Below are positions 4,413 through 52,694 of a stretch of 64,000 bases of DNA, one piece after another. The stretch is from the NCBI RefSeq assembly GCF_018139625.1, contig NZ_JAGSOH010000021.1, forward strand, positions 1 to 64,000, given 5' to 3'. Position 1 is the first letter of the stretch, and each line of letters begins with the position of its first letter. Under the pieces are notes generated by a model. The model searched no databases. It saw nothing but the letters and a program-made list of their open reading frames with translations, and was not told the DNA's origin. The position numbers and the translations under genes are program-made. Source of the DNA: Actinospica acidithermotolerans (GTDB lineage: Bacteria > Actinomycetota > Actinomycetes > Streptomycetales > Catenulisporaceae).

Positions 4413-4594
4413 CCGCGCCGCCCTGCCCGAATTCTGACGAGGAATCAACCCCTCCGGCATCGGAATCGCCTCCGTCCCCGGATCAGCACCCTGGGGGGCT
4501 ACGCTCCTGCCCGCGGTCGCGCTAGCGTCGTCTGCGGGCGCCGTTCCATGCCCTCATCCACCCGGACCGACCCCATCGGGGAACGAGCAGACAC

Positions 4595-4735
4595 GTGGCC
4601 ACCGCGAGCCCGCCCCTCGCCGCCGCGCTCAGCGGCGTGCCGTCCTACACCGGTGCCGAAACCGTCGCCGGCACCCTCATCCTCTTCCTGGTCGCCGCCG
4701 CCGCGACCGTCGCCTTCATCAAACGCCGACGCTGA
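4595..4735 (+). CDS. Small single-span membrane protein (46 aa)
   Basis: GTG 4595 opens a 46-codon frame ending at TGA 4733-4735. The product has a short polar N-terminus, one hydrophobic helix (about residues 22-41, ETVAGTLILFLVAAAATVAF) and a basic end, IKRRR, which predicts a tail-anchored protein with the C-terminus inside. A GGGGAACGAG ribosome-binding site lies upstream. No family is recognised. The last codons and the stop are duplicated directly downstream. Coding status rests on the clean hydrophobic/basic pattern only. Confidence 0.5.
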   Translation: MATASPPLAAALSGVPSYTGAETVAGTLILFLVAAAATVAFIKRRR

Positions 4736-4788
4736 GGCGATTGGCCCGGCCGCCCCTGTCGCCTTCATCAGACGCCGACGCCGAGGCG
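4709..4788. repeat. Duplicated 3' end of the 46-aa ORF
   Basis: A 31-base stretch starting GTCGCCTTCATCAAACG at 4709-4739, which contains the stop codon of the small ORF, is repeated with two substitutions at 4758-4788. The offset is 49 bases. In the second copy the stop codon position reads CGA instead of TGA. Confidence 0.8.
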
Positions 4789-4822
4789 GTCGGTGCCGAA
4801 CCGTTGCCCTCGCGCTGAATCC

Positions 4823-4879
4823 TTGACTAGACAGACCTGTCTGTCTTAGGGTGTGCAGCACTAGACAGACCTGTCTTTT
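4823..4879 (+). promoter_or_regulatory. Promoter of the MFS gene with two TetR-type operators
   Basis: A -35 like TTGACT (4823-4828) and a -10 like TAGGGT (4847-4852) are 18 bases apart. The palindrome AGACAGACCTGTCT fills the spacer (4829-4842) and recurs at 4863-4876 before the start codon. A third, variant copy stands before the tetR gene at 6361. Occupation of the first site would block RNA polymerase. Confidence 0.75.
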
Positions 4880-35862: not shown

Positions 35863-36008
35863 CCTCTCGAACGACGATCCGAATTCGAGTGCTTGTCCGC
35901 ACATAGCGCGAAAAAACCCTTGGACGCCGTCGCCGCCGTCACGCGACACTGAGAGCTCTGACGGCGGCCTTCCGCCAAATCCTGCGGGCACATCAAGGAG
36001 GCGGCGTG

Positions 36009-37895
36009 ATGGGTGTTTCACGCGATGAAACGGGCGAGGAGAAACCGGACAAGGGTTCGGTGATGCTCGCCGTGCGCTATTACCGGCGCGAGATGACGCG
36101 GCTCTGGCGGCTCACGCTACCGGCCATGTTCGGGCCGGCGCTGGGCAACATCGGCATTCTCTACCTCGCGCCGCTGGTGGTCGCGCAGCTCGTCACCCGG
36201 ATCACCGGGAACGCGCACCTGACCCTCGGCGCGGCGATTCCCTACGTGCTCGGATTCACCGGAATTCTGCTGATCTCCGAGGTGCTCTGGCGCATCGGGA
36301 TGCATTTTCTGAACCGGCTCGACGCGCTCGGAATCGAGCACTTATACGTGGTCGGCCTGGACGAGCTGTTCGCGAAGGACGCGGCGTTCTTCCACGACAA
36401 CTTCGCCGGCTCGCTCACGAAGCGGGTCGTGAGCTTCGCGTCCCGGTTCGAGCAGACGGCCGACACGCTGGTGTTCGAGGTCGTGGGCAACTTCGTGCCG
36501 CTGGCCTTCGGCTCGGTGGTGCTGTGGCGCTACGACCCGTGGCTGGTCGCCCTGCTGCTGGGGATGATCGCGATCACGGGCGCGGCCGTGGTGCCGATCA
36601 TCCGGCACCGCCAGGCGCTGGTGGATCTGCGCGAGGCGGCCAACGCGCGGGTGGCGGGGCACGTCGCGGACAGCCTGACGAACATGGACACGGTCCGGGC
36701 CTTCGCCGCCGAACGGCGGGAGGCCGCCGAGCACCGCAGCCGGGTCGCGGAGGCGAAGCGGCTCTCGGTGCGCTCTTGGGACTACAGCAACCTGCGGGTC
36801 GACACGGTGATCGCGCCGATGTCGGTGCTGACCATCGGCCTCGGGCTGCTGCTGGCGGTCGTGCTCGCGACGCGCGGCCAGGGAGTGGCGGCGATCGTGG
36901 TCGTCTTCTCCTACTACTCGAGCGCGACGCGGATCATGTTCGAGTTCAGCCGGATCTACCGCAACCTGGAAAGCGCGATGACCGAGGCCGCGCAGTTCAC
37001 GGCCCTGGTGCGCACGCCGCCGACGGTGCTCGACCCGGTGACGCCCGAGCCGCTGCGCTCCGGGGCCGCCGAGATCCGCTTCGAGCGGGTGACGTTCGGC
37101 TACGGCAGCGGCAAGCCGCTGTTCGACGGGCTCGATCTCGCGGTGCCGGGCGGGTCGCGGATCGGGCTGGTGGGCCGCTCCGGCGGCGGCAAGAGCACGC
37201 TGACCAAGCTGCTGCTGCGGCTGACGGACATCGACGGCGGCAGGATCCTGATCGGCGGCCAGGACATCCGCGACCTGCGCCAGGCGGACCTGCGCAGCCA
37301 GATCGCGTACGTGCCGCAGGATCCGGCGATGTTCCACCGGACGCTGCGCGAGAACATCGCGTTCGCCCGGCCGGGCGCCACCGAGGCCGAGATCCGCCGA
37401 GCGGCCGAGGCCGCGCACGTCGCCGAGTTCGTCGAGGCGCTGCCGGACGGCTACGACACGATGGTCGGCGAACGCGGCGTGAAGCTCTCCGGCGGGCAGC
37501 GCCAGCGCGTCGCACTGGCCCGGGCCATCCTGCGCGACGCCCCGATCCTGCTGCTGGACGAGGCGACCAGTGCGCTGGACTCGGAGAGCGAGATCCTCGT
37601 CCAGGAGGCGCTCTGGCGGCTGATGGAGGGGCGCACGGCCCTCGTGGTGGCGCACCGGCTGAGCACGGTCGCCGGCATGGACCGCCTCGTCGTCCTCGAC
37701 CGCGGCCGGATCGTCGAGCAGGGCACGCACCACGAACTGCTGGACGCGAAGGGCGCGTACGCGAAGCTCTGGCGGCACCAGTCGGGCGGCTTCCTGAGCG
37801 AGGAGACGAGCGAAGACGCGAGCAAGGAGACCAGCGAAGACAGCAGCGAAGACACCAGCGAGGAGGCGAGCGAGGCGGTCGGCGCCACGGTCTGA
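36009..37895 (+). CDS. ABC exporter, fused permease-ATPase
   Basis: A 628-residue half-transporter. The six-helix permease is at about 20-330 and the ATPase at about 355-590, with Walker A GRSGGGKST, Q-loop YVPQDPAMF, signature LSGGQRQRVALARA and Walker B ILLLDEATSALD. The last 40 residues are a Ser/Glu/Thr-rich acidic tail made of repeats like SEETSEDAS. A homodimer is expected. ATG 36009 was preferred over GTG 36006 from spacing to AAGGAGG. The stop lies in a small tandem repeat. Substrate unknown. Confidence 0.88.
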   Translation: MGVSRDETGEEKPDKGSVMLAVRYYRREMTRLWRLTLPAMFGPALGNIGILYLAPLVVAQLVTRITGNAHLTLGAAIPYVLGFTGILLISEVLWRIGMHFLNRLDALGIEHLYVVGLDELFAKDAAFFHDNFAGSLTKRVVSFASRFEQTADTLVFEVVGNFVPLAFGSVVLWRYDPWLVALLLGMIAITGAAVVPIIRHRQALVDLREAANARVAGHVADSLTNMDTVRAFAAERREAAEHRSRVAEAKRLSVRSWDYSNLRVDTVIAPMSVLTIGLGLLLAVVLATRGQGVAAIVVVFSYYSSATRIMFEFSRIYRNLESAMTEAAQFTALVRTPPTVLDPVTPEPLRSGAAEIRFERVTFGYGSGKPLFDGLDLAVPGGSRIGLVGRSGGGKSTLTKLLLRLTDIDGGRILIGGQDIRDLRQADLRSQIAYVPQDPAMFHRTLRENIAFARPGATEAEIRRAAEAAHVAEFVEALPDGYDTMVGERGVKLSGGQRQRVALARAILRDAPILLLDEATSALDSESEILVQEALWRLMEGRTALVVAHRLSTVAGMDRLVVLDRGRIVEQGTHHELLDAKGAYAKLWRHQSGGFLSEETSEDASKETSEDSSEDTSEEASEAVGATV

Positions 37896-37959
37896 ATGCG
37901 GTCGGCGCCACGGTCTGACTCGGCTCCCGGCGCCTGACCGCGGTCGGCGTCACGGTCTG
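37876..37959. repeat. Three tandem copies around the ABC gene stop codon
   Basis: GCGGTCGGCGCCACGGTCTG occurs at 37876, 37899 and, with one change, at 37940. The first copy encodes the last residues (VGATV) and the stop; the others follow in the intergenic region. Confidence 0.8.
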
Positions 37960-50771: not shown

Positions 50772-51626
50772 TCAGCCGCGGCCGGTGAGCCTGCGGCCCG
50801 CGTCCAGGCCGGGGAAGCTGCGGGTCGGGGCGGACATCAGGAAGCGGTAGCCCTCGCCGAGGACCCGTTCGACGTTGCCCTCGGTGACGTGCGGGTGCCC
50901 GACCACGACGTCGTGCTCGAGGCATATCCCGACGATGCGCCTGCGGGCCTCGACCATCAGCGGGTGCTCCAGCTGGCGGGGGACGCCGAGCTCCTGGCTC
51001 AGGTCGCCCTCGCCGATCATGACCATGCCGATGCCGGGCACCTGCTCGAGGATCGCCGGCAGGTTCTCGATGCCGAGCTGGTCCTCGATCATCAGCACGA
51101 CGAGGATTTCGCCGTCCGGATCGAGCGGCCAGACATCGGCCTTCGCGTAGTACTCCTGGTTCGACACACCCCAGTAGCGCGCCGCCGCGGCGGGCGCGTC
51201 GCCGCGCACCCCGGCCGGCTCGTAGAGCTTCTCGCCGGGCAGCCGCGGGTACCGGCAGGCCGCGACGGCGTTGCGCGCCTCCTCGACTCGGGTGATGTGC
51301 GGCCAGACGATGCCGTACGCGCCGAGGTCGAGCGCCTGCTTGGCGTGCCACTGGCCGTACTCGGCACCGTTGACCGGCACCCGGACCAGCGGCGTGGGCG
51401 CCGCGGCGAGCGTCTCGCCCGAGAAGATCCGCCGCCGGTCGAGCAGGTACTGCAGGCTGTCCCGGAGGATCGCCGCGTCCCACGCCTTGTGTTCGGCCTC
51501 GAAGACGAGGCCGTCGTAGTCGGTCGCGGCGAATTCGAGGGCTGCGGCCGGCTCGGGCGCGGCGAACGCGCCGAAGGCGTGCCGTCCCGATTCCAGCGCG
51601 CCGATCACACTGTTGAGCCTCGTCAT
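50772..51626 (-). CDS. HpcH/HpaI-family aldolase
   Basis: A 284-residue class II pyruvate-type aldolase. Key motifs are YDGLVFEAEHKAWD, LVRVPVNG, ALDLGAYGIVWPHI, where Gly-Ala-Tyr-Gly replaces the usual GAxG, and the metal Glu/Asp in LMIEDQLGIEN and IGEGDLSQELG. By position next to ligJ it is a candidate for cleaving 4-carboxy-4-hydroxy-2-oxoadipate to pyruvate and oxaloacetate, a step done by the unrelated RraA-like LigK elsewhere. ATG 51626 overlaps the stop of the last mini-ORF (ATGA); its first five codons (MTRLN) are the part copied in the array. Confidence 0.85.
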   Translation of the reverse strand: MTRLNSVIGALESGRHAFGAFAAPEPAAALEFAATDYDGLVFEAEHKAWDAAILRDSLQYLLDRRRIFSGETLAAAPTPLVRVPVNGAEYGQWHAKQALDLGAYGIVWPHITRVEEARNAVAACRYPRLPGEKLYEPAGVRGDAPAAAARYWGVSNQEYYAKADVWPLDPDGEILVVLMIEDQLGIENLPAILEQVPGIGMVMIGEGDLSQELGVPRQLEHPLMVEARRRIVGICLEHDVVVGHPHVTEGNVERVLGEGYRFLMSAPTRSFPGLDAGRRLTGRG

Positions 51627-51724
51627 CGAGCACTCCCTGCCTGTTCGGTCTGTCGCTTGCTCACCGCGCGGCGCCACCAGGCACGCAGGGCCGTCCACCA
51701 GGAGCGCCCGTTGAGCCTCGTCAT
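51623..51724 (-). CDS. Mini-ORF 5 of the array (33 aa, E to Q variant)
   Basis: The last unit before the aldolase; the change at 51643 turns TEEAG into TEQAG. Its TGA overlaps the aldolase ATG, so ribosomes ending here could restart on the aldolase. Confidence 0.55.
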   Translation of the reverse strand: MTRLNGRSWWTALRAWWRRAVSKRQTEQAGSAR

Positions 51725-51822
51725 CGAGCACTCCCTGCCTCTTCGGTCTGTCGCTTGCTCACCGCGCGGCGCCACCAGGCACGCAGGGCCGTCCACCAGG
51801 AGCGCCCGTTGAGCCTCGTCAT
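51721..51822 (-). CDS. Mini-ORF 4 of the array (33 aa)
   Basis: Same peptide as mini-ORF 1, with its own AGGGAG site and four-base overlaps on both sides. Confidence 0.55.
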   Translation of the reverse strand: MTRLNGRSWWTALRAWWRRAVSKRQTEEAGSAR

Positions 51823-51920
51823 CGAGCACTCCCTGCCTCTTCGGTCTGTCGCTTGCTCACCGCGCGGCGCCACCAGGCACGCAGGGCCGCCCACCAGGAG
51901 CGCCCGTTGAGCCTCGTCAT
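51819..51920 (-). CDS. Mini-ORF 3 of the array (33 aa, T to A variant)
   Basis: The same frame, with the base change at 51890 turning RSWWTAL into RSWWAAL. Signals and ATGA overlaps are kept. Confidence 0.55.
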   Translation of the reverse strand: MTRLNGRSWWAALRAWWRRAVSKRQTEEAGSAR

Positions 51921-52018
51921 CGAGCACTCCCTGCCTCTTCGGTCTGTCGCTTGCTCACCGCGCGGCGCCACCAGGCACGCAGGGCCGTCCACCAGGAGCG
52001 CCCGTTGAGCCTCGTCAT
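51917..52018 (-). CDS. Mini-ORF 2 of the array (33 aa)
   Basis: Same 33-codon frame and signals as mini-ORF 1, with the same peptide. Start and stop each overlap the neighbours by four bases. Confidence 0.55.
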   Translation of the reverse strand: MTRLNGRSWWTALRAWWRRAVSKRQTEEAGSAR

Positions 52019-52116
52019 CGAGCACTCCCTGCCTCTTCGGTCTGTCGCTTGCTCACCGCGCGGCGCCACCAGGCACGCAGGGCCGTCCACCAGGAGCGCC
52101 CGTTGAGCCTCGTCAT
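52015..52116 (-). CDS. Mini-ORF 1 of the array (33 aa, Trp/Arg-rich)
   Basis: ATG 52116 overlaps the SRPBCC stop as ATGA. The 33-residue product starts MTRLNG, has RSWWTALRAWWRRAVSKR and ends EEAGSAR: four Trp and a net charge of about +6, an amphipathic-helix pattern. The site AGGGAG stands six bases before the ATG. Its stop overlaps the next mini-ORF start. Translation is predicted from the signals, not shown. Confidence 0.55.
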   Translation of the reverse strand: MTRLNGRSWWTALRAWWRRAVSKRQTEEAGSAR

Positions 52117-52694
52117 CGAGCACTCCCTGCCTCTTCGGTCTGTCGCTTGCTCACCGCGCGGCGCCACCAGGCACGCAGGGCCGTCCACCAGGAGCGCCGC
52201 ACGGGCGCCTGCCGGGCGACCGTGACCGGCGCGGCCGCTTCGTCGACGACGCACCGGCGGACGAGCTCCTCGGTGAACTCCCGGGTCATCCGGGCGACGA
52301 CGGCGCCGGCGCCGGCCTCGATCACGGACGCCAGCCGGCCCGCGAGCGTCACCTCCCCGGACATGTGCACCCAGGACCCGCCGCCCTCCCGGTCCTCGGC
52401 GACCCGGAACGTGGCCTGCGCGGAGAACCGGGTCGCCCCCTGGCCGTCCCGGCCGCGCGCGGCCAACCGCCCTTCGTGCGCGGGCTCGTCCAGCTCCAGC
52501 GAGAGACGGGCACCGAACTTCACCCGCACCGCGCCGAACTTCACGACCAGCGCGCCGTCGAACGAGCCGTCGTCGTGGTACTCGCCGAGCTCGGCCCCGT
52601 GGATGCAGGACACCACCTCGGACGGGTCGGACACGACGGCCCAGACCCGGTCGGGCGGAGCCGGGACGGGGATCGCTTCCTCGATCTTGATCAA
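52113..52694 (-). CDS. SRPBCC (CoxG-like) protein with Trp-rich C-terminal tail
   Basis: A 193-residue protein. An SRPBCC/CoxG domain covers about 1-150 (IPVPAPPDRVWAVVSDPSEV, CIHGAELGEY, GEVTLAGRLASVIEAGAG). The tail RSWWTALRAWWRRAVSKR could bind membrane. CoxG proteins anchor CO-dehydrogenase-type enzymes or bind small hydrophobic ligands; here the gene leads an aromatic-acid operon, so the partner is unclear. TTG 52694 is the most likely start, with GCGAGG upstream. Its 3' end is the source of the 98-bp repeats. Confidence 0.75.
   Translation of the reverse strand: MIKIEEAIPVPAPPDRVWAVVSDPSEVVSCIHGAELGEYHDDGSFDGALVVKFGAVRVKFGARLSLELDEPAHEGRLAARGRDGQGATRFSAQATFRVAEDREGGGSWVHMSGEVTLAGRLASVIEAGAGAVVARMTREFTEELVRRCVVDEAAAPVTVARQAPVRRSWWTALRAWWRRAVSKRQTEEAGSAR

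Follow-up and report, generated by a model that had tools for sequence, protein, structure and literature searches.

In the 64,000-nucleotide stretch of DNA analysed here (the window), a tandem array of six 98-bp units (51612..52199, minus strand) lies between two operon genes of the same strand, a CoxG-type SRPBCC gene (52113..52694) and an HpcH/HpaI aldolase gene (50772..51626), and its unit, judged by its sequence, is the junction of those two genes, i.e., the SRPBCC 3′ end with the aldolase 5′ end, copied head to tail. We think it probable that the array is a recent junction-derived minisatellite, amplified to about six copies, in which translational coupling has been kept and which is retained near-neutrally.

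Anatomy and source of the array

The array received the top TRF score in the window (period 98, 6.0 copies, 99% match at 51612-52198) and, because it is a 588-bp repeat with 99% identity, chance is ruled out and the array is real. Direct reading placed its minus-strand ATGs at 52116, 52018, 51920, 51822, 51724 and 51626, the first five of which (copies 1-5) each open a 33-codon ORF plus stop (102 nt), with the sixth being the start of the aldolase gene. Successive mini-ORFs overlap by the four bases ATGA, so that 102 - 4 gives 98, the length of the unit, and such overlaps are present at all six junctions (6/6), from SRPBCC through the mini-ORFs to the aldolase; AGGGAG-N6-ATG likewise recurs in 6/6 copies. 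Mini-ORFs 1 (52015..52116), 2 (51917..52018) and 4 (51721..51822), all on the minus strand like their neighbours, encode the same peptide, MTRLNGRSWWTALRAWWRRAVSKRQTEEAGSAR, and mini-ORFs 3 (51819..51920) and 5 (51623..51724, whose TGA overlaps the aldolase ATG) carry a Thr to Ala and a Glu to Gln variant, respectively. The two internal base differences among the copies are both non-synonymous, and there is an additional variant base at the boundary of the first array copy. Most of this anatomy had been described in the initial annotation, and TRF and direct reading bore it out: the six copies, the five extra 33-codon ORFs with their ATGA overlaps, the AGGGAG six bases before every ATG, the two base differences (to which the boundary base is to be added) and the net charge of the peptide, given as about +6 and computed as +6.

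A rival explanation of such a repeat is that the assembler made or distorted it, or its number of copies: the assembly is in 422 contigs, the order of which suggests short reads, and 588 bp of near-identical copies are hard to resolve. The copies differ at three positions, however, which is not something a software loop invents, and there are many further arrays in the genome, with a similar design also in a single-contig genome; we consider an artefact very unlikely. As the assembly is probably short-read, we are surer that the array exists than that it has exactly six copies.

What the initial annotation missed was the source of the unit, the flanking genes' own ends. Each mini-ORF consists of MTRLN followed by GRSWWTALRAWWRRAVSKRQTEEAGSAR; MTRLN comes from codons 1-5 of the downstream aldolase (MTRLNSVIGALE...), and the remainder, save a glycine at the seam, corresponds to the 27 C-terminal residues of the upstream SRPBCC protein (...APVRRSWWTALRAWWRRAVSKRQTEEAGSAR), the codons for which form the bulk of the repeat unit. 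The first array copy is the native SRPBCC end, with its TGA stop overlapping the ATG of mini-ORF 1, and the last copy is the native aldolase start (MTRLNSVIGALE, with AGGGAG-N6 before the ATG). Because the unit is the duplicated junction, what had been noted as a Trp/Arg peptide is the C-terminal helix of the CoxG-type protein itself. The duplication seam, AAC/G/GGCGCTCC, has no useful microhomology and one base extra or changed; a CGGCGC shared nearby was considered as microhomology and set aside, since its use needs a further 8-nt deletion and direct joining is simpler. A 97- or 98-bp segment across the SRPBCC/aldolase ATGA overlap would thus have been tandemly duplicated in a single event, most likely by end-joining, which fits both the seam and the Ku encoded in the window's genome, and this duplication would then have been amplified to about six copies, with the later growth of the array proceeding by slippage or unequal recombination.

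In a GC-rich repeat, the coupling of frames does not of itself establish that they are coding, because the antisense strand of the array (51612-52225, + strand) has them too, in the form of TTG-started 33-aa frames that also overlap by 4 nt; these are a chance effect in a GC-rich repeat. The mini-ORF had no domain match in Pfam, and a search of the array sequence against plasmids gave no match. RNA folding of the units was not better than that of shuffles (z-scores -0.70, -0.13, -0.60 and +1.63); there is therefore no specific structural coupling signal, and RNA structure as the purpose of the array was rejected on these z-scores.

Flanking genes and the CoxG-type tail

The SRPBCC gene encodes 193 aa from a probable TTG start at 52694, and its product resembles CoxG by Pfam (COXG, PF06240, 46.4 bits against a cut-off of 22.2), by sequence profile (E 1e-10) and by fold, the top match being 8uds (E 1.4e-11, TM-score (target) 0.85), an entry titled ‘CoxG from M. 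smegmatis, minus lipid anchoring C-terminus’. The downstream protein (284 aa) matches Pfam HpcH_HpaI with 76 bits, and its start agrees with that in three Nocardia relatives (L047, L050 and L055). A CO dehydrogenase maturation operon was also considered, and no CO dehydrogenase genes were present among the scanned neighbours of the gene pair, i.e., aldolase, amidohydrolases, a TPP enzyme, an esterase and MFS.

The AlphaFold prediction has the tail of the SRPBCC protein as a separate basic, Trp-rich helix (residues 169-189) after a disordered linker. Since homologues of CoxG anchor partner enzymes to membranes (PMC11962113), it is plausible by homology that the tail is anchor-like and membrane-active, and to this extent the initial annotation's membrane-active helix stands; an amphipathic-helix test of the tail added nothing to this, as its hydrophobic moment is not above that of shuffles (P about 0.46). 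The same evidence bears on a proposal that the array works as a source of peptide, i.e., that five extra basic, Trp-rich tail peptides per transcript bind the membrane or compete with the CoxG tail. The title of 8uds calls this part of CoxG lipid-anchoring, CoxG homologues act as membrane anchors for enzymes (PMC11962113) and the charge of +6 would suit such a role, but both internal copy differences (2/2) alter an amino acid, the hydrophobic moment offers no help, and the peptide is accounted for as a by-product of duplication; we regard the proposal as highly improbable.

The junction in relatives and known repeats

Among 49 loci from named genomes and five from order-level relatives, the SRPBCC gene is located directly before the aldolase gene in nearly all, the stop of the one overlapping the start of the other or lying close to it, and the SRPBCC protein ends, again in nearly all, in a C-terminal tail behind a variable linker, the tail often having an RLRAWW motif and then basic residues. 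The linker before the tail helix itself contains 21-27-bp in-frame tandem repeats in L052, L068, L073, L074, L078, L079 and others. The search of related genomes for the unit, as proposed in the initial annotation, returned the junction in single copy, without an array, in most relatives (CGATGACGAGGCTGAACAGTGTGATCGGCG is present once each in the Nocardia loci L047, L050 and L055), together with an older, larger duplication in two Streptomyces.

In these two, L042 and L049, there is a gap between the SRPBCC and aldolase genes. In L042 (duplication at 4568-4879), the gap first repeats the aldolase 5′ region (115 nt, 85%, E 5e-35) and then the SRPBCC 3′ tail (43 nt, 84%, E 2e-9). The hybrid reading frame so formed is uninterrupted, with a 13-nt overlap at the aldolase start, and the unit is about 332 nt, which is 2 mod 3. 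L049 (4790-5034) has a similar junction duplication, more decayed and with a unit of 265 nt, that is probably the same event; the hybrid ORFs are 61-113 aa. Both read as a tandem duplication of the SRPBCC-aldolase junction that is older and larger than the one in the window: they share with the window array the gene pair, the succession of aldolase start and CoxG tail, and a hybrid ORF up to the aldolase, and they differ from it in having one extra copy only (about 332 or 265 nt) and in being much diverged.

The initial annotation knew of no described case like the array, a claim that fails because the MIRUs of mycobacteria, e.g., those at M. tuberculosis senX3-regX3, share the design of coupled mini-ORFs with -4 spacing. 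As the work of Supply et al. (1997) is described in PMC12548453, PMC4213456 and PMC2734929, MIRUs are found at 41 interspersed loci and are apparently mobile. Their units are roughly 40-100 bp (PMC2734929), their ORFs are coupled at -4 nt through insertion at start codons (PMC12548453), and in H37Rv M. tuberculosis three identical 77-bp MIRUs lie between senX3 and regX3 (PMC4213456). The window array is like them in its short tandem units between operon genes (98 bp x 6) and its ORFs coupled at -4 nt; MIRUs are known to vary in copy number. The similar coupled layout and size range, and the existence in the window's genus of a dispersed MIRU-like family with 77-bp units, could be taken to mean that a MIRU-type mobile element was inserted at the ATGA site. 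Yet a search of the whole 7.89-Mb assembly found the 98-bp unit confined to the array at 51612-52199, a single locus and not an interspersed one, and the unit is not foreign, being made of aldolase codons 1-5 and the last 27 codons of SRPBCC, which are native and conserved in relatives. For the 98-bp unit as such, insertion is refuted, and we give it almost no weight. Being confined to one locus and composed of the ends of its neighbours, the array is not a MIRU but a MIRU-like array of coupled mini-ORFs that arose by gene-junction duplication. Another M. tuberculosis repeat, VNTR3239 at rnc-fpg1, is similar in that its tandem repeats lie between two genes and end at a start codon, but differs in its complex 55/79-bp units, its reported effect at the mRNA level and in that a coupled chain is not described for it (PMC2734929). 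Junction-duplication arrays as such were not found in the literature searched.

The 77-bp family of the genus has a dispersed unit that is a 26-codon ORF (MSELASES...), with 54 matches in the same-genus complete genome G002, 10 in the window's genome (G000) and 5 in G001. Copies include L224, L227, L230 and L152:10717 in G000 and L225 and L228 in G001, and several readable ones (e.g., L224, L225 and L152) are at ATGA or GTGA gene junctions. At L217:8032-8270 of G002, three 26-codon ORFs (MSELASESVNTVLARMRPASASEAVS) are joined by ATGA between two genes, and this is the sole long-period array seen in the G002 sample (0.80 Mb). The family is like the window array in having a coupled ORF at ATGA/GTGA junctions, sometimes in tandem, and unlike it in being unrelated in sequence, dispersed and not derived from its flanks; homology between the two was rejected, the window sequence being that of the flanking genes. 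Three short matches of the 77-bp unit on plasmids, in unrelated bacteria, were judged to be chance. The first 24 nt of the unit recur in genomes of another taxonomic family (f6/g8: G400, G391, G396, G378 and others), some of the recurrences being tandem, 65 bp or 30 bp apart, and it is possible that they are linked to true MIRUs. According to PMC4213456, MIRUs are restricted to M. leprae and the M. tuberculosis complex, a statement that the genus 77-bp family would contradict if homology is confirmed.

In 1.96 Mb of the window's genome (the window plus L087-L182, about a quarter of the total) there were 18 near-perfect arrays with a period of at least 40 (9.2 per Mb); G002 had 1 in 0.80 Mb and the loci of relatives 0 in 0.40 Mb, and the density in the window's genome is thus, as a comparison of samples of two genomes, ~7x that of G002. 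With such arrays abundant in the same genome, the window array is one product of a genome-wide minisatellite tendency. A second array of the window's genome also spans a gene junction (L167:6205-6694; four copies of 122 bp, a length likewise 2 mod 3), and its mini-ORFs begin with the first codons of the downstream gene; its flanks, named from sequence reading, are presumably the end of a phosphoribosyltransferase-like gene and a MOSC-like gene. Three other arrays with coupled mini-ORFs (L132, L115 and L142) were set aside, as their gene context does not put them across a coupled junction. Elsewhere in the window, at 37875-37918, 23 bp that include the stop codon of an ABC-transporter-like gene (36006-37895, + strand) are perfectly duplicated in tandem, a further duplication at the end of a gene.

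Reading frame, persistence and copy number

When all duplications of 40-150 bp across the SRPBCC/aldolase junction were simulated, exact -4 coupling was kept in 98.6% of those with a length of 2 mod 3, in none of the other lengths, and in 33% overall. A phase of 2 mod 3 is expected one time in three without selection, and is therefore weak evidence for selection. Three junction duplications were judged intact in phase, those of 98, 122 and about 332, and the length of each is 2 mod 3 (3/3; about 0.04 by chance), which weakly hints at a phase filter, with the caveats that L049 (265) is an exception and that L167 is without a native -4 overlap.

With a unit length of 2 mod 3 and no stop in the unit frame, every added copy is a hybrid mini-ORF, which begins in the preceding stop codon, ends in the following start codon and has the aldolase gene's own AGGGAG ribosome-binding site. 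Translational coupling is well known at -4 overlaps (PMC6728339, PMC10666635, PMC12548453), and owing to the chained ATGA overlaps and the AGGGAG in every copy, ribosomes leaving SRPBCC could hop five times by termination-reinitiation, or start anew, and still reach the aldolase. The ATGA chain supports the earlier suggestion that the arrangement preserves coupling from SRPBCC to the aldolase, and the operon is probably not broken by the array. Its survival would be explained by a length that keeps this coupling, as in a third of the simulated duplications, and the array would persist as nearly harmless, the free tail peptide being a by-product. Coupling in the cell, near-neutral retention and any effect on dose are what we infer; six near-identical copies could also be compatible with active maintenance.

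One form of maintenance would have the array kept for tuning, i.e., ribosomes would be lost or recruited at each hop, and the number of repeats would set aldolase against SRPBCC. The architecture permits tuning and there are precedents: in M. tuberculosis, the mRNA level of fpg1 correlates with the length of the tandem repeat that precedes the gene (PMC2734929), and the number of senX3-regX3 MIRUs differs among BCG strains (PMC9392950). A ribosome-binding site in each copy could, however, buffer output, and a high-copy array is absent from the relatives examined; we consider such tuning unlikely. A compound proposal, that junction duplication is a recurrent, phase-filtered route to coupled hybrid mini-ORF chains in actinomycetes and that copy number is a working rheostat of the aldolase/CoxG-type pair, seems to us distinctly unlikely.

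As a junction-derived minisatellite, the array points to a simple route by which new small translatable ORFs may arise with the operon left intact, namely by copying the gene overlap itself. It predicts a rule, that surviving junction duplications at -4 overlaps have a length of 2 mod 3, and it suggests that there is a non-mobile route to MIRU-like coupled repeats.
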